64,000 nt of DNA from Lentimicrobium saccharophilum (GTDB lineage: Bacteria; Bacteroidota; Bacteroidia; Bacteroidales; Lentimicrobiaceae), in assembly GCF_001192835.1 (NCBI RefSeq), contig NZ_DF968182.1:2823113-2887112 (forward strand), given 5' to 3'. A program made the translations under genes and the position numbers. This document shows positions 12,490 to 23,630 of the stretch, piece by piece. The notes under the pieces are model-generated. The model did not search any database and was not told the origin of the DNA. It saw only the letters and a program-made list of their open reading frames with translations. Position 1 is the first letter of the stretch. Each line of letters starts with the position of its first letter.

Positions 12490-13287
12490 TTGCAATCAAG
12501 TAAAAAAATATTGCAGGAAAAACATTACAAAACCATTGTTGTATCTGATGTGCACCTGGGAACAAAGAACTCCGGGGCAAGGCAACTGGTAAGATTTCTG
12601 AAAAAAAACAGCTGCGATACGCTCATCCTTAACGGAGACATTATTGATGGCTGGCGGCTGAAACGTTCAGGAAAATGGCAGAAAAAGCACAGCCGATTTT
12701 TCAGGCTGATTATCAACATTCTGGATCAAAAAAAAACAAGGATTATATATATCCGGGGGAATCATGATGATTTCCTGGATCAATTCATCCCTTTCACCTC
12801 CGGAAAATTCTCAATTGTGAAGGATTATATCCTCGAATCCGGCAACATGCGTTATTACGTTTGTCATGGTGACATTTTTGACCTGTTTACAAGCCGGCTG
12901 CGTTTTGTGGCAAAGCTTGGAGACACAGGCTATACTTTCCTCCTCTGGTTGAACCGCCGGATCAACAGATACCGGATCCACAAAGGCAAACCTTACTATT
13001 CCTTTTCTCAGGCTGTGAAACACAAAGTTAAAAGCGCAGTTTCATTTATCAGCAATTTCGAAAATGAAATGTGCAGGATAGCCCGCTATAATATGTGCCA
13101 TGGAATCATCTGCGGGCACATCCACCAGCCTGCCAACAAAATGATTGACCATATCCATTATATGAACTCCGGGGACTGGGTTGAGAGTATGACTGCCCTG
13201 ACAGAGGATTATCAAGGCAAGTGGGAAGTATATTATTATATTGAAAGTACGCCTGATTTAAGCAATGTAGTATTCCCTGAAAATTGA
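12490..13287 (+). CDS. UDP-2,3-diacylglucosamine diphosphatase-like metallophosphoesterase
   Basis: About 265 residues of the calcineurin-like phosphoesterase fold, nearest in motifs to the LpxH/LpxH2-type enzymes of lipid A synthesis. The metal-binding blocks are in order: SDVHLG (D20, H22), LNGDIIDGW, RGNHDDF, CHGDIFD and CGHIHQPA. No ATG opens the frame: it starts with TTG at 12490 or TTG at 12511, both ahead of the first strand (TIVVSDVH). A one-mismatch -7 box (TATTCTTG, 12485-12492) overlaps the first TTG and would favour the second. Many Bacteroidota carry several such paralogues, so the true substrate is not certain. Confidence 0.85.
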   Translation: MQSSKKILQEKHYKTIVVSDVHLGTKNSGARQLVRFLKKNSCDTLILNGDIIDGWRLKRSGKWQKKHSRFFRLIINILDQKKTRIIYIRGNHDDFLDQFIPFTSGKFSIVKDYILESGNMRYYVCHGDIFDLFTSRLRFVAKLGDTGYTFLLWLNRRINRYRIHKGKPYYSFSQAVKHKVKSAVSFISNFENEMCRIARYNMCHGIICGHIHQPANKMIDHIHYMNSGDWVESMTALTEDYQGKWEVYYYIESTPDLSNVVFPEN

Positions 13288-13778
13288 AACCCATTATATA
13301 CTTTTTAAATCGAATATTTCTACATGGCCGAGAATCTCTCAAAAGAACATGATTATTCGCCCGGGGGTTTTCAACAACAACGGGCCTTCAAATCCATTCA
13401 AATACAAACATAATTAGCTGGCTATACAGCATTACAAAATAAAAAAATGCTGTGACTGGTAATTAATCCTTATATCAATGGATTAATTACAGGATATATC
13501 CCGAAATTTCTCTCCTAAGACTTCCAACCAACAGCAAAGTTATTTCAAAAAAATTGGATTTAAACAACAATGCTGAACCTCTCTGTTATTGGAATTTCAT
13601 TCATAAATACAGGCCGCTTCTTTAGATCAAGTTTAAATAACAATCTGCTCTTGCCACAGGGCGATTGATTCGGTATTTTTGTTTTGCTGAAAGCGATACT
13701 CAACTGATTCACTACTATTCCGGGCTGCCAGGCATTACTTATATCACGCAAATCCATTAACCTAACAAAAATAACATT
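13288..13778. other. Spacer with no recognisable gene
   Basis: This 490-base AT-rich stretch separates the phosphoesterase from the zinc-ribbon operon. I see no convincing gene: a 65-codon minus-strand frame at 13560-13757 lacks family features. The promoter of the zinc-ribbon operon is expected near its end, but no clean TAnnTTTG box was found. Confidence 0.6.
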
Positions 13779-14567
13779 ATGAAATTCTGTACAAGTTGTG
13801 GTAGTGAACTTCGCGAGGGCGTGAAATTCTGTCCCTCATGCGGCAAACCGATCCAGGCTGAGAGCCAGCCTCAATCCCCGGTCAACCAGCCCGTAACCCC
13901 GCCTCCCCCTCCGGTTTATCAGGCGCCTCAGCCGGCTTATGAAGAACCTGTTTACGGAACAACGAAACATACAAACCTTATTCAAAGGGTGATCAACATC
14001 ATTATCAAGCCCAAAGAAGAATGGAGGGTAATTGCTTCGGAAAAGCCTGACACCACAAAGTTGCTGGTTGGTTACGCCCTGATCCTGGCTGCCATCCCGG
14101 CAATTGCTTCCTTTATCAAATTCGGGGTAATCGGGGTAACTTACTGGGGATATACCTCGCGCAGCATTGCCGGCGGCATTCAGTACGGACTTGTTCAGTT
14201 GCTCTCGGCCCTGATCGGCGTGTACATTCTTGCCTGGATCATTGATCTGCTTGCACCGTCCTTTGACTCAAAAAAAGATTTCGGAAGATCATTGCAACTG
14301 GCTGTATATTCCACAACGCCTCAATGGCTGGCCGGTATCCTTTTAATCCTGGGTACAAGTATGAGCATATTGGTACTGCTTATCGGACTATATGCCATTT
14401 ACCTGCTGGCGGTTGGAATGCCGGTTCTTAAGGAGACCCCGAAAGAAAAAGTTGTGGGATATGTTGTTGTAACCATCATCGCCATGATTGTGCTGACATT
14501 TGTTGTCGCGCTGATTATCGGAGCTATTGTCGGCCTGTTCTTTGGCGCCAAAATGATGGGTATGTAA
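13779..14567 (+). CDS. Zinc-ribbon plus Yip1-domain membrane protein
   Basis: This 262-residue protein begins with a four-cysteine zinc ribbon (CTSCGSELREGVKFCPSCG, residues about 4-22). A Pro/Gln-rich linker of about 40 residues follows, then a Yip1-type membrane domain with roughly five spans (LLVGYALILAAIPAIASFI, YGLVQLLSALIGVYILAWII, LAGILLILGTSMSILVLLIG and two more). The segment IIIKPKEEWRVIASE before the first span is typical of bacterial Yip1 proteins. The ribbon should be cytoplasmic. It is the first of four co-directional genes, three of which carry a similar N-terminal ribbon. The function is unknown. Confidence 0.82.
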   Translation: MKFCTSCGSELREGVKFCPSCGKPIQAESQPQSPVNQPVTPPPPPVYQAPQPAYEEPVYGTTKHTNLIQRVINIIIKPKEEWRVIASEKPDTTKLLVGYALILAAIPAIASFIKFGVIGVTYWGYTSRSIAGGIQYGLVQLLSALIGVYILAWIIDLLAPSFDSKKDFGRSLQLAVYSTTPQWLAGILLILGTSMSILVLLIGLYAIYLLAVGMPVLKETPKEKVVGYVVVTIIAMIVLTFVVALIIGAIVGLFFGAKMMGM

Positions 14568-14601
14568 CCCAGCTTAAAAAAGTTCATTAAACTGCCACAC
14601 C

Positions 14602-16248
14602 ATGAAATACTGCCCTCAGTGCGGAACCGGTTTTGAACCGGGCGCACGCTTCTGCAACGAATGCGGATTTGACAAACAGAGTCTTGAAACTGAAATAGCC
14701 GGAGCAGCATCCGCAGATCAATCTGATAAGCCCCGGCCGCAGCATCAGCAACTTTGTCCGAAATGCGCCGCTCCTTTGCCGGCTGAAGACCGGTTTTGCG
14801 CTGAGTGTGGCTTCGATAAACAGGCTGCGGCAGCAGCCGGAATAACGGCAACTGATTTCCCGGAAGAAACGCCACAGGAACCTGAAAAGCCGGCAAAAAC
14901 ATGCCCTGAATGTGCCGCCCTGCTTACCGATGAAGAACGGTTTTGTCCGCAATGCGGATTCGATACAGCAATGGCGGCGGCAGGTGGAGAAACGCCGGCG
15001 GATGCCGGATCTGCAGAGGTAATTGCTGACGCGGTTTCAAATGAACAGCCGGTGGAAGAGCCTGTTGCTGAATCTGTTACACCAGAACCTGTTTGCCCGC
15101 AATGCGGAGGTCCGTTGGCTTATGAAGAGCGCTTTTGCCCCGGATGCGGCTTCGACACCTCAGCAACCCCAAAAGAGCCGGCAATAATTACACCTCCGGC
15201 AGCACCGGAAGCGCCTCCTGAACCGCCTGCTCCCGTTGAACAGCAGGCCGACGGACAGTATTGCCCCAACTGCGGCGCATTTGTGGTATCAGGCGACCTT
15301 TTCTGCCAGGATTGCGGATACAGAATGACCGATATGGTTGCAGCCGCCACGGGCGAAGAAGTGAAACACGAAACCCAACTGCCTCCCCCGGTGGTTCCGG
15401 TTGTTGAAAAAACGGTTCACACCCCTCCGGTCGCTGCCCAGGCTCCGCCTCCGGCTGCCTTACCACCACAGCCTGTGGTATCAGAAGCCCGAAAACCTCA
15501 AAAAAGCAGGAAAGGAATCCTGATTGCCTTACTGGCGCTATTGGGCTTAGCGGTGTTGGGCGCAGGCGGGTGGTACGCTTATCAGCATTTCTTCAGCGGG
15601 ACAAAAACAGAAGTAGCGGAAGTAATCCCTGCAGAAACAGTGCCGGAGCTTCCTGTAACTGAGCCGGAAATAATCCTGCCGGCAGAAGATTCGGCAAGCA
15701 CTGAAATTGCTGAAGAGGTGCCGGTGGTAAAAGAACCTGAAAAAAAAGCCCCCAAACCGAAAAAGACGACGCCCAAAAAGCCGGCGGAAGCTCCGAAGCA
15801 ACAACCCGCTCAGGAAGAGCCGGTGAAAAAAAACGAACCCCTGACCGTGGTAATGAAAAACACCACCACGTCCAAATCGCCGAGAACGCTTTACAACACC
15901 TTCAATACCGAACCGGTAAAGGGCAACCCTCCTTTTGCCAATAAGGTTAAGTTTGACAAGGCCATGGTTGTGACAAGGATTATCACTTTTCACTATAATG
16001 AAGGAAACGGGGCGCCCGCAGGCACCATCACCCTCGAAGGCCGTAAAAAAGAGACCGGCGGTCCATGGCAGGCACGGAATGCGCCCGGCAGCGACGGGAC
16101 ACCCAACGAAAAATGGATCTGCGAACCCAATGCACGAATGGAAGCAGGCACTTACAAGGTGGTAGTTTCGGATGATAAATCCTGGTCTTTCAACACAAAA
16201 TCAGGCCGTAAGGGAATGGTGATTATTGAAGGTTACGAAGCAGACTGA
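14602..16248 (+). CDS. Protein with five tandem zinc ribbons and one membrane span
   Basis: The 548-residue protein carries five CxxC...FCxxCG ribbons, beginning at about residues 3, 53, 101, 157 and 220 (for example CPQCGTGFEPGARFCNECG). They are separated by Ala/Glu/Pro-rich spacers. A single membrane span (GILIALLALLGLAVLGAGGWYA) lies near residues 302-323. Beyond it come a Glu/Pro/Lys-rich linker (KKAPKPKKTTPKKPAEAPK) and a globular C-terminal domain of about 120 residues. Topology by the positive-inside rule puts the ribbons in the cytoplasm and the C-terminal domain outside. I do not recognise the last domain. It sits 34 bases after the Yip1 gene and seven before the next gene. Confidence 0.8.
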   Translation: MKYCPQCGTGFEPGARFCNECGFDKQSLETEIAGAASADQSDKPRPQHQQLCPKCAAPLPAEDRFCAECGFDKQAAAAAGITATDFPEETPQEPEKPAKTCPECAALLTDEERFCPQCGFDTAMAAAGGETPADAGSAEVIADAVSNEQPVEEPVAESVTPEPVCPQCGGPLAYEERFCPGCGFDTSATPKEPAIITPPAAPEAPPEPPAPVEQQADGQYCPNCGAFVVSGDLFCQDCGYRMTDMVAAATGEEVKHETQLPPPVVPVVEKTVHTPPVAAQAPPPAALPPQPVVSEARKPQKSRKGILIALLALLGLAVLGAGGWYAYQHFFSGTKTEVAEVIPAETVPELPVTEPEIILPAEDSASTEIAEEVPVVKEPEKKAPKPKKTTPKKPAEAPKQQPAQEEPVKKNEPLTVVMKNTTTSKSPRTLYNTFNTEPVKGNPPFANKVKFDKAMVVTRIITFHYNEGNGAPAGTITLEGRKKETGGPWQARNAPGSDGTPNEKWICEPNARMEAGTYKVVVSDDKSWSFNTKSGRKGMVIIEGYEAD

Positions 16249-16255
16249 CCCGGTG

Positions 16256-16972
16256 ATGGAAAAACCGCAGAACAAACAATGGAATGTAGTAAAAACGTGG
16301 ATCATCCTCACGGTATTGTTCCTTTTCGGGTGCTTTACCCCGGCATTGTCCGGCATCGACGGGATGAACGGCGGATTTGCCATCATCACCATTTGTGGTT
16401 TTCTGGTGATTTGCGGAATCATCGTGATAGCAGTTTATCTGAAACGCGCCCGGCAACTTGACAGGATGATCAGCGACGATCAGAATCTGGCCAGATGGGA
16501 GATCGATAAACCGCTCTGGGATAGATACATTGAACTTGATTTTTCCGAAGATAAGTCAATCAGCAAAGGAACTTTTATACTGATTTCCGTGATATCAGTC
16601 GTAATCGGAATAGCTCTGAGTCTTCTTGCCGGAGATATCCTTATGCTCTATATATGTCTGGGAATCATTGCTATATTGATAATTCCGGCCTTTACTTTTC
16701 CCTGGTTCAGAAAAAGAAATAAACTTAAGAGCCCTGCATTGGTCATTATTTCCGAATACTCGGTTTATGTAGGCGGGGCTTATAACAACTGGAATATGCT
16801 CGGTTCAAAACTCGACGGTATTTCGCTGGACAAAACGGATAAACTGCTTCTCATGCGCTTCAATATGAGTTATCCTGCGCGGACCGGAATTGAGCATTAT
16901 GAAATAAGGGTGCCTGTCCCTGAAGACCGGGAGGAAGAAGCCAGCCGCATCCGGGAACATTTCGGTTATTAA
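16256..16972 (+). CDS. Four-span membrane protein of the zinc-ribbon operon
   Basis: About 238 residues without a zinc ribbon. Two spans lie near the N-terminus (TWIILTVLFLFGCFTPALSG and FAIITICGFLVICGIIVIAV) and two in the middle (ILISVISVVIGIALSLLAG and ILMLYICLGIIAILIIPAFTF). A soluble C-terminal region of about 75 residues (SPALVIISEYSVYVGGAYNNW) may be a small beta-rich domain. The frame is open from 16226, inside the previous gene; the ATG at 16256, eight bases past that gene's stop, is preferred. I do not recognise a family. The tight spacing argues that it works with its ribbon-bearing neighbours. Confidence 0.75.
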   Translation: MEKPQNKQWNVVKTWIILTVLFLFGCFTPALSGIDGMNGGFAIITICGFLVICGIIVIAVYLKRARQLDRMISDDQNLARWEIDKPLWDRYIELDFSEDKSISKGTFILISVISVVIGIALSLLAGDILMLYICLGIIAILIIPAFTFPWFRKRNKLKSPALVIISEYSVYVGGAYNNWNMLGSKLDGISLDKTDKLLLMRFNMSYPARTGIEHYEIRVPVPEDREEEASRIREHFGY

Positions 16973-17006
16973 ACAGATTGATCATTAATCATAAAATCAC
17001 AGAATT

Positions 17007-17873
17007 ATGGCTTTTTGTGGAAATTGCGGAACCCGTCTGAAAGACGGCGCCGTTTTTTGTCATGAATGCGGAGCACGGCAGGATGCCGGAGCAGCACCAC
17101 CCGTCAGGCAAACCATGCAACCCCCTTCAGCTCCGCCCCCGCCCGTGTATCAGGCCCCACCACCTCCGCCACCCGCCACGGCAGTAACAGGCGCGATAAA
17201 ATTCAGCGTTGAAGAGAAACAGATGCTGAAAATGGTGAAGGTTGAGATGCAGAACACGATGTTCCGCTGCGAATCGGGCGCCATGTACTACATGCAGGGC
17301 AACCTTCAGATAGAATCAAAAATGCCCTCGGCCGGTGGGTTGCTCAAATCAATGGTGACAAAAGAAACAGCTTTTAAGCCCACCATCAGCGGAACCGGAA
17401 CAGTTTATCTGGAACCAAGTTTCGGAGAGTTTACCATTATGGATCTTAAGAATGAAACCTGGATCCTGGACAAAGGCGCTTATTATGCTTCGGAAATGGG
17501 CATAGAAGTCGGCCTCTGGACCAACAAGGCCATCAGCGGGCTGTTTTCGGGTGAGGGATTTTTCCAGACGCAGGTTTCAGGGACGGGCAAAGTGATTGTG
17601 GTCTCCAACGGCCCGCTTGAAGAAATTAACCTGGTAAATGACCGGCTGGTGGTTGACGGTTCCTTCGCCATTGCACGCACGGCAGGTATTGATTTTACCG
17701 TGAATAAAGCGACCAAGGGCCTCTTTTCATCCTGGACATCGGGCGAGGGCATCGTGAATACCTTTACCGGCACCGGCAAGGTGCTGATTGCCCCTGCCGC
17801 AAACCGTCATGTTACCATGATGAACTACCTGGGATCGATTTACCGCAGGGTGATTGCGATAAAGAATTCATAA
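17007..17873 (+). CDS. Zinc-ribbon plus AIM24-family protein
   Basis: This 288-residue protein has an N-terminal ribbon (CGNCGTRLKDGAVFCHECG, residues 4-22), a proline-rich linker to about residue 58, and a C-terminal AIM24/TIGR00266-type domain. That domain is built of beta repeats such as FKPTISGTGTVYLEPSFGEF and FQTQVSGTGKVIVVSNGPLEE. The AIM24 fold is a trimeric beta-prism; its biochemical role in bacteria is not established. There is no signal peptide or membrane span, so it should be cytoplasmic and could attach to the membrane through partners. It ends the four-gene run, 34 bases after the previous gene. Confidence 0.85.
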   Translation: MAFCGNCGTRLKDGAVFCHECGARQDAGAAPPVRQTMQPPSAPPPPVYQAPPPPPPATAVTGAIKFSVEEKQMLKMVKVEMQNTMFRCESGAMYYMQGNLQIESKMPSAGGLLKSMVTKETAFKPTISGTGTVYLEPSFGEFTIMDLKNETWILDKGAYYASEMGIEVGLWTNKAISGLFSGEGFFQTQVSGTGKVIVVSNGPLEEINLVNDRLVVDGSFAIARTAGIDFTVNKATKGLFSSWTSGEGIVNTFTGTGKVLIAPAANRHVTMMNYLGSIYRRVIAIKNS

Positions 17874-17916
17874 AACGCAGATCCGGCCCGGTAATATTTC
17901 ACCGGTAAAAACCGGA

Positions 17917-18501
17917 TTATTCTTTCGTGAAGGTGATTTTCCATAATCCGCGGAAATCACCTTCTTTATAACCTGTTGCCAGGTCACCGGGATATTGCTG
18001 CCTGATAACTTCAAGTGTTCCGGGCAGGATGTCTTTCCCCGCTGCTCCATGGCAACTGAGACAGGCCGGCATCGCCACCCTGATGGGTTTGTAATAAATC
18101 AGGGCACTGTCTTCGTTAAAGATCAAGGGCGATGCAGCGTTTAAAGAACCCAATTTTTTCAGCAGGGCCGCTTCTTTTTCGCCGGGCTTATTGGCGGGAT
18201 TGCGGTATTTATCAGATATCCTCTGAATCCTGCAGTTATATTTCAGCGCAAGTGAATCGGTAAGCGCCATGGCACGTTCGTTACAGAAAGCGACCGCGTG
18301 GCCTGCCCCTCCGGCTTTAGTGGCAAGCATCACGTTTGACAGTAAGACCTGTTGAACAGCCACCGTAATTGAATCGCCAAGCTGTATAAAAGCAGTGGTA
18401 TCAAATCCCCTGCTGTCTGAATTGCCAGGCTGATTTGATTGATTGCAGGAAATAAGAACAAACAGAAGCAGGAAAGAGATGCCGGAAAGTAGTTTTCTCA
18501 T
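17917..18501 (-). CDS. DUF3365 (Tll0287-like) c-type heme lipoprotein
   Basis: A 194-residue exported lipoprotein: the signal ends in a lipobox (LLFVLISC, lipid-carrying C19). The mature part matches the Tll0287-like heme domain (DUF3365), with the core segments AFCNERAMALT, RISDKYRNPAN and a c-type heme site CLSCH (C147, C150, H151). Such domains bind heme in the periplasm and may serve redox sensing or electron transfer; in other proteins they sit in front of histidine kinases. Here the domain stands alone, in the opposite orientation to the zinc-ribbon operon and with no obvious redox partner nearby. Confidence 0.87.
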   Translation of the reverse strand: MRKLLSGISFLLLFVLISCNQSNQPGNSDSRGFDTTAFIQLGDSITVAVQQVLLSNVMLATKAGGAGHAVAFCNERAMALTDSLALKYNCRIQRISDKYRNPANKPGEKEAALLKKLGSLNAASPLIFNEDSALIYYKPIRVAMPACLSCHGAAGKDILPGTLEVIRQQYPGDLATGYKEGDFRGLWKITFTKE

Positions 18502-18525
18502 AGGATTTTTAATGTTTAATCAATG

Positions 18526-18767
18526 TTGTCCGGTTAAGTTATGAGATTCTTCTCCCGCAAAATGCGGGATCAGAATGACTTTGACTTACATGGGTTTGAT
18601 GGGGAGGGGGCTTGGTGGCGGCTATACCGCCACCAAGCCCCCTTTGATTATCTTTAATGTATTGTCATTCTGAACGCAACGTAGTGAAGTGAAGAACCGA
18701 TCCCGATACCATCGGGAGAGCTCACCGAAGGTAATCTCATAACTCATTCTAAAAATTTACCGGACAA
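18526..18767. repeat. MITE-like element with TTGTCCGG ends and a nested palindrome
   Basis: TTGTCCGG (18526-18533) and CCGGACAA (18760-18767) form eight-base inverted ends. Inside, the left arm (18538-18579) and right arm (18664-18743) are inverted relatives, each running GTTATGAGATT to TCAGAATGAC when read inwards. The centre is a perfect 16-pair GC-rich hairpin (18606-18621 with 18627-18642, five-base loop). No open frame is present. A second element with the same ends lies at 44870-45089. The structure resembles a non-coding miniature mobile element. Confidence 0.65.
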
Positions 18768-18776
18768 AAATGATAT

Positions 18777-19226
18777 TTAATGATCAGCATGATTTGCCCT
18801 AAGTTTTCCGGAATAGAAAAAAAGCAGATAGAGCACAAAAAAAGTGAACAGATTCGCGACCAGCACTGCCATAAACCCGCTTCCGTAAATAAACAGTACA
18901 GACAGGATAAGAAATGCAGTATTTACCAGCACAGCCCTGAACATAGCCTTCAAACGGATCAGATCAAAGCCTTGCTGTTCATTTTTTTCCTTAGAGAATG
19001 CAACCAGGGCCAGGCCGGTCAATAAAGTCAGCAGGGTCAGCTCATCGGAGAAATTTGTCCGGAAAGTCACGAACATTTTAGTTTCCAGGAAGGCCGAGTA
19101 AACGGCAAAAACCGGGATTTTCAACCTGAAATCAAACCAGGTGAACAGCACCGCCAGCAATACGCCGGCGGAAGACAGTATCATACCGGGCAACTTCCAC
19201 CGGTAAGGCAATAAAAGCTTGTTCAT
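18777..19226 (-). CDS. Four-span membrane protein of unknown function
   Basis: About 149 residues when started at the ATG at 19226 (MNKLLLPYRWKLPG); the frame is open to 19292, which would overlap the lipoprotein gene upstream. Four membrane spans are visible: GMILSSAGVLLAVLFTWF, LTLLTLLTGLALVAFS, AVLVNTAFLILSVLFIYG and VANLFTFFVLYLLFFY. The charged KEKNEQQGFDLIRLKAM loop between the second and third spans is probably cytoplasmic. Similar short proteins opening with KLLLPYR occur in Bacteroidota, but no function is known. It probably shares a transcript with the lipoprotein gene. Confidence 0.7.
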   Translation of the reverse strand: MNKLLLPYRWKLPGMILSSAGVLLAVLFTWFDFRLKIPVFAVYSAFLETKMFVTFRTNFSDELTLLTLLTGLALVAFSKEKNEQQGFDLIRLKAMFRAVLVNTAFLILSVLFIYGSGFMAVLVANLFTFFVLYLLFFYSGKLRANHADH

Positions 19227-19278
19227 TGACAATGAATCAAATACAAATGTGAAAATATTATACCATCCCGCGCTGAAA

Positions 19279-19932
19279 TCAGTTTTCAGCACTGGAATAA
19301 ACCGGAAAAGTCACGCTGGTTTCATCGTCAAAGTCGACCCTGACTCCAACCATCCCAAACTTATGGTTAGCAATGTAGGTGATTTTCTGAATCCCGCCGC
19401 TCTTAATGTCAATCGGGGTGGTTTCAACCTGAATGGTTTTGATCAGGAAAAATCCGTACGGATAGTCATCAACCCCGGTTTTACTGACTACCTTCCTTTC
19501 TTTACCGGTATTGCCAACCGGGTAGGTGTCGCCAACCTTCGAATCGTACTTCACCAGTACACCGGCACCCGGGCCCGTAAGGCATTTAATGCCTTCGGTG
19601 GTCTGCTGCATCTTCAGGTTGGTGATGGTGACATCATCGCCGTTGATGGTAACGCCGGGGAAACCCGAAACCATGTTTTTGATAAAAGTGTTGGTAACTT
19701 TGGCCGAGGCGGTATAGGTCGAAACACCATCCTTCAGCTCGGTAACTACCGCTGAAAAGTCGCTTACTCCCGCTATTTCAGCAGAACTGGATGAAACGAT
19801 AACACCAACCTCGCCCATGGGTGACTGGTCGCCCTTGAGTTCATTCGCATCTTCCTTGTCAAGGATTTTCTCGCAGGATAAGCAGAAAACGCTGACTGAG
19901 ATGCCAAGCAGAATTACAAACAGCTTTTTCAT
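19279..19932 (-). CDS. Lipoprotein of unknown function
   Basis: A 217-residue protein with a signal peptide ending in the lipobox FCLSC (lipid-carrying cysteine at residue 20). The mature part is rich in beta-strand-type sequence (SAEIAGVSDFSAVVTELK, KVTNTFIKNMVSGFPG) with no cysteine-based or catalytic motif that I recognise. It is probably anchored to the outer or inner membrane facing the periplasm. The membrane-protein gene follows directly downstream. Confidence 0.75.
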   Translation of the reverse strand: MKKLFVILLGISVSVFCLSCEKILDKEDANELKGDQSPMGEVGVIVSSSSAEIAGVSDFSAVVTELKDGVSTYTASAKVTNTFIKNMVSGFPGVTINGDDVTITNLKMQQTTEGIKCLTGPGAGVLVKYDSKVGDTYPVGNTGKERKVVSKTGVDDYPYGFFLIKTIQVETTPIDIKSGGIQKITYIANHKFGMVGVRVDFDDETSVTFPVYSSAEN

Positions 19933-20030
19933 GTGAGGATAATTGATTAAATGTGAAGTAAATTAAGAGGTCTCATATTATTGATATTAAAAGCATTACG
20001 CTTTCAAAATCAACCGATCGTCCATAAAGA

Positions 20031-23000
20031 TTAATAAAACCGATTCCCGCACTTTCCGCAGAATTTTACGCCCGGTTTCAGTGGATTTCCGCACTTAGGA
20101 CAGAATTTGGGCGTAGAAGCAGGTTTCATAACCGTACCACCCGCCTGCATTGGAGTAGCGGGTGGAGTTGCTGCCGGCATGACCGGGGCAGCAGGGATAG
20201 TTACATTCACCGGACCGGAAGCCGGCTGTCTCTTTCTCCGGCGCCTGCGGATCAACAGCAGCAACAGTAACAACAGCAATAAAAATCCTGCTGCAATCAA
20301 AACATAAACCATCCTTTTGTCGGTTCCGGTCTTCAGGATAATAGCTGAAGACTTTTCCTCAAAAGTGTTGACCCTGGGATTCGCCTCCATCGATTTCAGC
20401 GCAGCAACAGCCTCTCCGGAGGAAGCAATCATTTCGGCCGATGTCGCCACCACCTTTCCTGAAACCTCATCCCAGCGGCTTTTCAGGAGCGGATCCTCCG
20501 GAGTTTGAAGAACACCCGGTGCAAGGATGATAAGTGACTCCATTCCCGACCGGTATGCACCGGCTGAACTGAATAAGCGTGCTGCCTTTTCGGGAGACTC
20601 CACCGTAAGCCAGTGAATCTTCAGTTCATGCTGCTCAAACCAGCGGTTGAATTCAGGATAACCTTGTAACATCTGGTTCAACGCCTGAACGGGCAAGGAG
20701 CCATTGCTGAGCTTGAGTTGTTTGTCATTTAATGCCGGAACGCCTTTCATTAGCAGGGCCTCCTGCCCGTTACCGGCCATCGCGGCGGGAAACAGCGACC
20801 AGTGAGCACCGGTGTTTTGGGTCACCGGATTTATCAAACCCTGTTCAATGCATTTATTGGCATAGATCAGCACGGCGTCACTTTCAGCCCACAAATTGCG
20901 GAAGCTGCAGAATTCAAGGGCAACGCTTGAAGCATGATAGGCGGCATTGAGGGCATTTTTGGTTTTGTCAATGTACTCCAGATGCTTCTGGATTTTCGCA
21001 AAATTGAGTGTTTTTACATCCCAGATAATTACAGCCCCTTTGACTATAAGATCTGCAAAAAGATCCGTATAAGCCTTAAAATCATCCAGATTAAGCCTCC
21101 AGGCAGCCACATCCGTGTATTGCTGCCGGATATCGGTGGAACGGTCGCGCAAGGCCGGTTGTAACTGTCCGTATACCGCGTGTACTTTCGCCGGATCCTG
21201 GTTTAAAAGCTTCAGTACTTCCGATGTCTGTCCGGCGTAAAACTTTGCCACCAGCTTATCGGCAATCATGTCGGGGAACGGAAGGTAATAAACAACAGCA
21301 TCCACCACAGCATCCATCATCTGCTTCTGCTTTTCGGTGAGCGCATAATTGGCAGCATGGCCCAGCAACCGGTAATATTCATCCGTCGGCAGTTTCTTTA
21401 CCTGTGCAATAACCTCCAATAAAAAATTCTGGGCAATATTGCGTTTGGCAGCATCCTCACTTATACCAAGCAGATGCTGGTTAACATAGCCTGTGGCCTG
21501 CACGCCCGCATCCGACAACTGTTTGCCGGTTTCGGTATTGCCCAGCCAGTTCCCGACCTTCTCATTGAATTTAAACTTTTCGGCGGCGTAAAACATCAGG
21601 AACTTCAGCGCTTCATAACTTTGCTGACCGAACACCTTGGCGCAGTCACGCACATACCTCGCGGATCCTTTGATATTGGTCATCAGCATACCGATCACAT
21701 GCAGTTTTTCCTCAATGTACATGGCATCCTGGTGACCTCCGGAACAGAGGCTGTTTTCCATTTCAAGCAACTTCGTCAGGACATTTGCTTTAAAATCCAT
21801 CGCCTTGAGGGTGGTTACCACCGGGGGCTCCCCCGCATTCTGCGCATCAACAACAGCGGCATCCCCGCCGGCCAGCAGGTCCAGGGCTTCGGTAAGCGCG
21901 CCCTTCCTGCGGCCGGTAAGGTCAGCGATTTTCGCTTCCAATGGTTCAATCTGCATTGTCCGGTCATAATCTCCTGAAAACAGCCTTCTTTTCCCTTCAA
22001 AATCCCTGACCACCAGTTTAAACTTTCCCGATGGCTCCGTAATGGCCGAAAATCCTCCCTTTTCATTTTCGAGCATCTGAATAAACATTGCCCGGTCTTC
22101 TTTAAAATAAAGGTTATAGACCTTCTGAAATTCTGCTTTGTCAAACTTCCGGCTGGCAAGAAATACCACCGCATCGTTGACCGGTGTCTTTTTGTTCGGG
22201 ACAGTCATGTAGCTTTCAGGAAGCAATGCATAAATACTGCTCTCCAGGTTGTAATACTCAAGCTGTGGCAACAGCACTTTATAGGGCAGAATTTCCATCC
22301 CGGGTTTGAGGATATAAATATCCTGCTCAAGGGTTTTATAAACCGAGAGATAGGCCTGGGTGGTCTCGGTTTTTTCGCTCAGCGAAGGATAGCTGGCCTT
22401 CAGCAGAAACAGATCGTAATTATCAATCAGTCCTCCGGTGTTTTCGCCCCTTTTTTCATCAGTCGCTTTTATGATGGGCGCTTCAAGCACAAGCACTGCA
22501 TTCCCCTGGGCGTTTGTTACCGTTTCCTTCGAGATAACCTTCAATCCAGCAGGAACCGACCAGGAGATGGTTTTCCCCTCAACAGGCCTTCCGTTTTCAT
22601 CTTCGAAATGAAATACGGCCTTTGTCCTGCTGCGCCCGTCGCCGACAATTTTATTCTGGCTGAATACAATGCCTGTCTTTTCTGTTTTTACTTCTTCTTC
22701 TTTGGTTCCGGCGGCCTCGCTGCTTTTTTTCTGACCGGCATATTCAAATAAAATGGGGGGTATGTAAACAAAAACACCATGGTTGGGCATAGGCATATAT
22801 GCCGAAGGCATGCCCATATCGCGAATGCTGTAGTTCTCCACATACTTTTGCTCCGAAGCGGGCAGGCCGATGAAGGCTTTTTTGAAGCCGGTCATCCCGG
22901 CCATCTTACCCATAGCATCATTGAATTCGGTAAACTCTTCATTGCTGAACAATATCCCGTTAGCTTCTCCCGGTGCAGATGCCTCCCCGAATGTACCCTC

Positions 23001-23630
23001 TCCGCCGCGGGTTATATCCAGATACCAGCTGGATTGCCCCGTAATATCCTTCCCATAATATACCCCGGGAATTATGTTCCCGTTCCGGCCGTCGGTGGCT
23101 TTTGTAATTTCAATTTTTGCTTTGCCCTTAACACCGTTCAGTTCACACACAATATATACAAAATTGTCGCCCTCTTTTTTAGGGATCAGGGTGATAGGGT
23201 TCAGTCCTTCGCGGAAAGTTTCAAGGGCAATATTTGTGGCCAGCTTCTGATTGGCAGCATAATCCGTTGAACCGGTGGCCCTGGCCATAAATTTCTGCAT
23301 GAAACGGAACATAAAATACACCATGCGCTGCGATGATTTCACCGGCGTCCCGAACATGGGGCTGGTAAATTTGACCAATGCCACGCCCGATTGCATGTTA
23401 ACCTCGGTTTCATCGGGAAAACCGGAACTGACACCTATTTTTACCTTGCCGCTCATAGTGGTAATTACTTCCCCTTCGCCGTTCCGGGCCGAAATCACCA
23501 GGGTGGTAAAATCCTCCCCGTCGCCGGCAAGTTGCGGTTTCCCGGGCTCCACCAGCAACCTGAACGATTCCTGCGGAAATCCTGTAAGGGCCATCAGTAA
23601 TATTAATCCTGCGATTATTGTCCGTTTCAT
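20031..23630 (-). CDS. Large membrane-anchored protein: Ig-like domains outside, zinc ribbon inside
   Basis: The 1,199-residue protein starts with a signal peptide (IIAGLILLMALTGFPQ). Near the N-terminus there is an invasin/Big_1-like beta domain (KPQLAGDGEDFTTLVISARN, about residues 30-95), and a second one around residue 325 (NKIVGDGRSRTKAVFHFEDE). A long, mostly helical region follows to about 1,090. A single span (VYVLIAAGFLLLLLLLLLLI, about 1106-1126) is followed by RRRRRKR, a proline-rich linker and a C-terminal zinc ribbon (CPKCGNPLKPGVKFCGKCG). The arginines place the ribbon in the cytoplasm and over 1,000 residues in the periplasm. It starts three bases after a small membrane-protein gene. 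Confidence 0.85.
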   Translation of the reverse strand: MKRTIIAGLILLMALTGFPQESFRLLVEPGKPQLAGDGEDFTTLVISARNGEGEVITTMSGKVKIGVSSGFPDETEVNMQSGVALVKFTSPMFGTPVKSSQRMVYFMFRFMQKFMARATGSTDYAANQKLATNIALETFREGLNPITLIPKKEGDNFVYIVCELNGVKGKAKIEITKATDGRNGNIIPGVYYGKDITGQSSWYLDITRGGEGTFGEASAPGEANGILFSNEEFTEFNDAMGKMAGMTGFKKAFIGLPASEQKYVENYSIRDMGMPSAYMPMPNHGVFVYIPPILFEYAGQKKSSEAAGTKEEEVKTEKTGIVFSQNKIVGDGRSRTKAVFHFEDENGRPVEGKTISWSVPAGLKVISKETVTNAQGNAVLVLEAPIIKATDEKRGENTGGLIDNYDLFLLKASYPSLSEKTETTQAYLSVYKTLEQDIYILKPGMEILPYKVLLPQLEYYNLESSIYALLPESYMTVPNKKTPVNDAVVFLASRKFDKAEFQKVYNLYFKEDRAMFIQMLENEKGGFSAITEPSGKFKLVVRDFEGKRRLFSGDYDRTMQIEPLEAKIADLTGRRKGALTEALDLLAGGDAAVVDAQNAGEPPVVTTLKAMDFKANVLTKLLEMENSLCSGGHQDAMYIEEKLHVIGMLMTNIKGSARYVRDCAKVFGQQSYEALKFLMFYAAEKFKFNEKVGNWLGNTETGKQLSDAGVQATGYVNQHLLGISEDAAKRNIAQNFLLEVIAQVKKLPTDEYYRLLGHAANYALTEKQKQMMDAVVDAVVYYLPFPDMIADKLVAKFYAGQTSEVLKLLNQDPAKVHAVYGQLQPALRDRSTDIRQQYTDVAAWRLNLDDFKAYTDLFADLIVKGAVIIWDVKTLNFAKIQKHLEYIDKTKNALNAAYHASSVALEFCSFRNLWAESDAVLIYANKCIEQGLINPVTQNTGAHWSLFPAAMAGNGQEALLMKGVPALNDKQLKLSNGSLPVQALNQMLQGYPEFNRWFEQHELKIHWLTVESPEKAARLFSSAGAYRSGMESLIILAPGVLQTPEDPLLKSRWDEVSGKVVATSAEMIASSGEAVAALKSMEANPRVNTFEEKSSAIILKTGTDKRMVYVLIAAGFLLLLLLLLLLIRRRRRKRQPASGPVNVTIPAAPVMPAATPPATPMQAGGTVMKPASTPKFCPKCGNPLKPGVKFCGKCGNRFY

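Follow-up and report, generated by a model that had tools for sequence, protein, structure and literature searches.

A conserved, co-inherited cluster of zinc-ribbon proteins with unrelated bodies in Lentimicrobium saccharophilum

The window analyzed in this work is a stretch of 64,000 nucleotides from Lentimicrobium saccharophilum (contig NZ_DF968182.1, positions 2,823,113 to 2,887,112 of the forward strand), and all coordinates without a locus label refer to it. The subject is a compact group of genes in this window, four of whose products (A, B, D and H) share a small zinc ribbon of the Zn_Ribbon_1 family on otherwise unrelated bodies. On comparative evidence, the cluster is a genuine, conserved system that is inherited as a set; its composition is unusual and its extent greater than first noted. 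Its features are listed below (aa, amino acids).

Gene A, 13779..14567, plus strand: 262 aa; N-terminal CxxC-x10-CxxC zinc ribbon, proline-rich linker and Yip1 membrane domain.
Gene B, 14602..16248, plus strand: 548 aa; five cytoplasmic zinc ribbons, a single span and a periplasmic C-terminal beta domain.
C-terminal periplasmic domain of B, 15865..16245, plus strand: predicted beta sandwich without a Pfam family.
Gene C, 16256..16972, plus strand: four spans, without a ribbon in the genus (listed open reading frame start, 16226).
Gene D, 17007..17873, plus strand: 288 aa; N-terminal zinc ribbon, proline-rich linker and AIM24 domain, with no spans.
Gene H, 20031..23630, minus strand: 1199 aa; signal peptide, Big_1-like ectodomain with a long helical part, a single span, an arginine-rich stretch and a C-terminal cytoplasmic zinc ribbon.
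Genes E (Tll0287-like), F (three spans) and G (lipoprotein), 17917..19932, minus strand: located between D and H.

The first four genes are separated by gaps of only 34, 7 and 34 bp (A-B, B-C and C-D, respectively), while H lies ∼2 kb downstream of D on the opposite strand. The four open reading frames were found where a preliminary description, made from the window alone, had placed them, and the Pfam assignments bear out its Yip1, AIM24 and ribbon domains, including the five ribbons of B. Gene A matched Yip1 with 79.5 bits (cut-off 28.6) over model positions 2-172 of 173, and Zn_Ribbon_1 with 34.6 bits (cut-off 25). In gene B, five ribbon stretches were recognized by Pfam, with PF13240 over its cut-off. 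Gene D matched AIM24 (PF01987) with 157.6 bits against a cut-off of 25.7 and Zn_Ribbon_1 with 30.5 bits; its score of 85.3 bits for TIGR00266 fell under the cut-off of 96.6, and its relatives in the PDB are 1pg6 and 1yox. Four cysteines in two CxxC pairs, together with a PF13240 score over the curated cut-off, were found in A, B, D and H. The last of these had been overlooked: the cluster, described initially as ending with D, extends past 17873 to a protein whose C-terminal ribbon scores 28.1 bits. The linkers, described as proline-rich throughout, are indeed so in A and D, while those of B are rich in Glu, Pro and Ala.

Gene C, the fourth member of the operon as originally described, is better viewed as an accessory than as a fixed subunit, being confined in this form to the genus and having ribbon-bearing paralogues elsewhere. 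The ATG at 16256, 7 bp past the stop codon of B, is a more likely start than the TTG at 16226. No Pfam family exceeded its cut-off in this protein, and its identification as PH-like or holin-like was rejected, the Pfam matches being sub-cut-off and inconsistent between members. Compared with the sister species G151 (G and L numbers are our labels for genomes and loci), the DNA of this region is mosaic, with 97% identity up to 16419 and from 17006 onwards and ∼58% in between (16420-17005); recombination or a C1/C2 fusion-deletion is the likely origin.

The grouping of the ribbons was examined in the whole sequence of the window genome (4.51 Mb, two contigs), in which proteins over the PF13240 cut-off were counted. 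Only five such proteins are encoded, and four of these (A, B, D and H) lie within 10 kb. The probability of four out of five falling into one cluster is roughly 2e-7, by a hand estimate that assumes uniform placement (∼5*4*(10.2/4514)^3). Tandem duplication does not explain the grouping, since the bodies are unrelated. The fifth protein, with two ribbons and a single span, is encoded at C1:158 kb, adjoining the gene for a 704-aa protein.

Within the genus, 19 genomes were compared, and Zn_Ribbon_1 matches were counted at E<=1e-4. The ribbons proved to be all-or-none: nine of the 19 genomes contained 6-12 matches, and the other ten contained none. The arrangement of A-B-C-D and H was kept in the carrier genomes wherever the contigs permit. 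Orthologues of A were identified at L103-L105, L107, L108, L113, L116, L117, L140-L142, L145, L147 and L149, and H was retained alongside the cluster at L103-L105, L109, L115, L119, L121, L141 and L149 (the loci from L140 upwards lie outside the genus). In G155, G124, G153 and G005, the junction is bare, with acpP-fabF-rnc or fabF-rnc immediately after mnmA; the mnmA of G155 is 97% identical to that of the window. Two further genomes retain the intervening genes (E, F and G in G160, F and G in G156), while both lack A-D and H. Genes E-F-G are therefore considered bystanders, outside the co-inherited set, and their candidacy as members of the system was rejected, since they are kept where the flanking A-D and H are both gone. 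In a tree built from three genes, carriers and non-carriers were interleaved: G160 grouped with G157 (100% support) and G150 with G152 (99%), and G155 and G149 were placed beside the window clade. Loss of the whole set, or its gain by transfer, has thus recurred independently. For A, B, D and H, nonsynonymous divergence (dN) from G151 was well under synonymous divergence (dS), and purifying selection on D was strong.

Co-inheritance extends to a gene pair which, in the window genome, is unlinked to the cluster. The 704-aa partner of the two-ribbon protein occurred in seven of the nine ribbon genomes and in none of the other ten (one-sided hypergeometric probability about 0.0007, by hand). A second two-ribbon/704-aa pair is located within the main cluster in G159, with a counterpart in G164, and in G162 a two-ribbon gene follows H at the end of a contig. 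Assignment of the 704-aa protein as a zinc-dependent phospholipase C was rejected, as the match was sub-cut-off (E=0.049). The 704-aa proteins of the window genome and G154 are 100% identical (L089:6481-8595 versus L123:6780-8894), while the neighboring ribbon protein is 90% identical and the G151 copy 93%; the full identity with G154 suggests recent exchange.

When GTDB species were searched using D as the query, 17 full-length ribbon-AIM24 relatives and one truncated copy were obtained (L132-L149). Among named records, the closest are metagenome-assembled genomes (MAGs) assigned to Lentimicrobium sp. or to other Bacteroidales, and D of L132 is 99% identical. Eleven of the loci lie outside the genus, in MAGs of Bacteroidales or Bacteroidia, with 57-67% identity. 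The order A-B-D is kept, at ∼60% identity, in L140, L141, L142, L145, L147 and L149; in L139 and L146, the contig begins inside B, and D is next. Gene H was found outside the genus in L141, L149 and, in cut form, L147, and a ribbon-bearing paralogue of C adjoins H in L149. A ribbon-less C between B and D is a trait of this genus. The combination of ribbon and AIM24 is rare: among 395 genomes of the class, it was present in one, that of the window itself. The preliminary description had allowed that the neighborhood might prove unconserved, or that the ribbons might be scattered at random. Neither was the case, since the A-B-(C)-D order recurs across Bacteroidales and, within the genus, A-D and H disappear as a set.

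The claim that the ribbons are appended to unrelated bodies was strengthened by homologous bodies encoded elsewhere. Outside such clusters, AIM24, Yip1 and C homologues almost always lack a ribbon. AIM24 bodies 48-65% identical to D, with neither a ribbon nor ribbon neighbors, occur in Cyanobacteria, Chloroflexi, Lentisphaeria and others (L150-L158). Among 75 AIM24 loci, a ribbon-bearing neighbor was detected within 3 kb in 15 of the 18 whose AIM24 protein carries its own ribbon, versus 2 of the 57 without one (Fisher P 4e-11, which is only indicative, because the loci were picked by similarity and are partly related). Among the exceptions are L139 and L146, cut by contig ends, L148, whose own D is truncated where the contig begins, and L173. 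Yip1 relatives gave a similar picture, with a ribbon neighbor for two of the three that carry a ribbon and for none of the 26 that do not. Homologues of C stand alone and ribbon-less in G010, G128 and G129, while in G072 the homologue bears a ribbon beside another ribbon gene; ribbon-bearing paralogues of C occur near H or its cluster in L107, L108 and L149. At L173:1244-3534, in a MAG of the Bacillota, a ribbon-AIM24 fusion is followed by genes judged by eye to be TerB-like and TerD-like, so that this fusion may have arisen independently, in a Ter-linked setting.

The ribbons themselves are uniform in spacing, CxxC-x10-CxxC in 180 of 182, and variable in sequence outside the Cys/Phe/Gly core. 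In 33 distinct single-span ribbon proteins, the side bearing the ribbon was the more positively charged in 32, with one tie and no reversal, and N- and C-terminal ribbons behaved alike. In L143 and L148, a FecR domain is followed by two spans with two ribbons between them. The constant feature, as judged from these charge patterns, is thus the positively charged, predicted cytoplasmic side, rather than the terminus. The number of ribbons per B protein varies from one (L140-L142), through three (L145, L147 and L149), four (G159 and G164) and five (the window), to seven (G157, near-identical repeats).

The outer portions of these proteins are diverse. The C-terminal domain of B was modeled by AlphaFold2 as a beta sandwich, with a predicted local distance difference test score (pLDDT) of 81.6. 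Foldseek gave weak matches of the CBM32/discoidin-like type, none at E<=0.001, and no PDB match was obtained by sequence search; a carbohydrate-binding role is not claimed, since the matches indicate only a weak resemblance among beta sandwiches. Two other Bacteroidota encode this domain by itself, as a lipoprotein. Regions of the PGAP1/lipase-like, FecR, or PAAR plus FecR type were found in the accessory ribbon proteins. An example of the last is L114:4413-6290 (G152), in which a PAAR motif (E 5.5e-9) and FecR are combined with a signal peptide, a single span and a C-terminal cytoplasmic ribbon.

The composition, co-inheritance and gene order of the cluster, its topology signals and the selection on its genes are evident at the sequence level. 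We propose, with about even confidence, that A, B, D and H, together with accessories, form one inner-membrane-associated envelope system, in which the ribbon would serve as a portable cytoplasmic tag. Its members would be A, B, D and H, with C as an accessory, the two-ribbon protein and its 704-aa partner, and, in other genomes, the lipase-like and FecR-domain proteins. The ribbons would be occupied by zinc, and docking, which the preliminary description had suggested, would depend on them. D, a soluble protein of an oligomer-forming family, and the multi-ribbon B may act as a polyvalent hub at the cytoplasmic surface of the membrane, where zinc ribbons, interacting mutually or via a common partner, would collect the Yip1-type A and the single-span proteins. 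The ectodomains (the beta sandwich of B, the Ig-like region of H and the lipase-like domains) might then bind or act on envelope material, and clustering of the tagged proteins in the membrane would contribute to envelope or lipid maintenance under stress. A more specific version is put forward tentatively, with less than even confidence: the ribbon as an address tag on the N-terminus, C-terminus or an inner loop of unrelated proteins, enrolling each in a single scaffold on the cytoplasmic face of the membrane, built of an AIM24 oligomer together with a multi-ribbon hub whose valency varies.

Several observations weigh against this proposal. The operon member C is ribbon-less, and ribbon-AIM24 (L173) and ribbon-Yip1 (L043) each occur once with no ribbon neighbor in reach. 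The helical region of H (residues 380-1095) was modeled with a pLDDT of 60.7, which is not reliable. The sampled clade consists of MAGs, so that some absences could reflect missing contigs, yet six sites were spanned. Linked genes can be lost together in one deletion, and beyond that, only the 704-aa pair and the G160/G156 cases argue for co-inheritance. Finally, interaction, expression and zinc binding of these proteins are putative.

The preliminary description knew of no bacterial system with this composition. This stands for the composition only: among the papers searched, none joins AIM24, a zinc ribbon and Yip1 in one bacterial system, while operons of multiple ribbon membrane proteins have precedents. 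In the llmg_0524-0526 operon of Lactococcus lactis, the same CX2CX10CX2C motif binds zinc on two membrane proteins, with different coordination and without demonstrated mutual binding, and one ribbon membrane protein is tied to cell-wall integrity (PMC4628341). That operon differs in having three genes and neither AIM24 nor Yip1, with no evidence that unrelated bodies are recruited. The pspA-ydjGHI (ydjFGHI/L) envelope-stress operon of Bacillus subtilis is likewise compact and combines a soluble ribbon protein (SPFH/band-7 with a C-terminal ribbon) with a ribbon membrane protein (N-terminal ribbons). Ribbons have been noted on two of its proteins (PMC11237479), and PspA and the soluble SPFH protein reach the membrane only with the help of YdjG and YdjH, which are membrane proteins (PMC8581546), an interdependence in which the role of the ribbon was not tested. 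The bodies here are AIM24, Yip1, Big_1 and multi-ribbon, and the ribbon is the sole common family; the cluster broadly resembles the ydj operon yet does not belong to that group, because PspA, SPFH and TPM domains gave no Pfam match in the nine genes of 12490-23630. The N-terminal cysteine motif, single span and extracellular domain of Staphylococcus aureus TcaA (described in PMC4628341) recur in B and the two-ribbon protein, although the TcaA model NF053815 scored only 11.9 and 17.9 bits against a cut-off of 550. Yeast Aim24 is membrane-bound, occurs in a large complex and stabilizes MICOS (PMC3975624); no MICOS component is among the Pfam matches of the cluster. D shares the body of this AIM24/DUF124 family (yeast Aim24, bacterial 1yox and 1pg6) and adds the ribbon and proline-rich linker. 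The stand-alone AIM24 proteins at L150-L158, the closest such bodies outside Bacteroidales, are unlike D in lacking a ribbon. None of the nine genes of 12490-23630 had a Pfam match to the Ter set (TerD/TerB/TerC); TerD/TerB-like genes were noticed, by eye, at L173 only.

An alternative that we consider doubtful, although with a real chance of being correct, is that each ribbon tethers the protein that carries it to a separate partner in the cytoplasm, or acts as a local zinc or redox sensor, so that the genes would share a regulon (e.g., for envelope stress) and no single complex. The divergence of the ribbons outside their core is consistent with separate partners, as are the differing zinc coordination and undemonstrated mutual binding in L. 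lactis (PMC4628341) and the two-hybrid results from B. subtilis, in which the central binder was YdjH, a protein for which no ribbon is described (PMC8581546, PMC11237479). A shared regulon alone, however, leaves unexplained why the same ribbon is found on clustered AIM24, Yip1 and C bodies, and why its position varies (N-terminal, C-terminal or middle) while its cytoplasmic side is constant. Accidental grouping of common zinc-ribbon membrane proteins with no joint function is disfavored and very improbable: the family is indeed widespread (over cut-off in 8 of 14 control genomes) and a single ribbon-Yip1 gene exists, but chance would not account for all-or-none occurrence in the genus, recurrent loss of the whole set and an order conserved across genera.

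A horizontally exchanged cassette, such as a defense or competition island, in place of housekeeping envelope maintenance, is also improbable, if somewhat less so. Patchy occupancy of one mnmA/acpP site in close species, the mosaic gene C, accessory proteins with PAAR and FecR or lipase-like regions, and rarity in the class are all compatible with such a cassette. Against it, the chromosomal site is constant across the genus, D is under strong purifying selection, and neither integrase nor transposase was matched by Pfam in the nine cluster and flanking proteins. A defense-system identity was rejected, since the PADLOC models gave no match for A, B, C, D or H at E<=0.01. Matches to PHROGs covered the generic ribbons and low-complexity stretches, with the exception of a single marginal match to H near the Big_1-like region.

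Cytoplasmic zinc ribbons are a frequent and unexplained feature of bacterial membrane proteins. The genus offers natural pairs of presence and absence, unrelated bodies that either carry the ribbon or lack it, and copy numbers from 1 to 7; the purpose of the ribbon is therefore directly testable. If ribbons are indeed assembly tags, many genes annotated as “zinc-ribbon domain-containing protein” could be grouped into systems by the same rule, and AIM24, whose bacterial role is unclear, would acquire defined candidate partners.

Other arrangements of related genes were encountered during the comparisons. In G072 (L083:8946-15321), three ribbon proteins, of which one has a C-like body, are encoded in a cluster of their own beside a 1321-aa single-span protein without a Pfam match. 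Two other genomes of the order (L087:8426-11657 and L088:7761-11048) each encode three AIM24 paralogues in tandem, all ribbon-less, next to a two-span protein; this is a different conserved AIM24 cluster.

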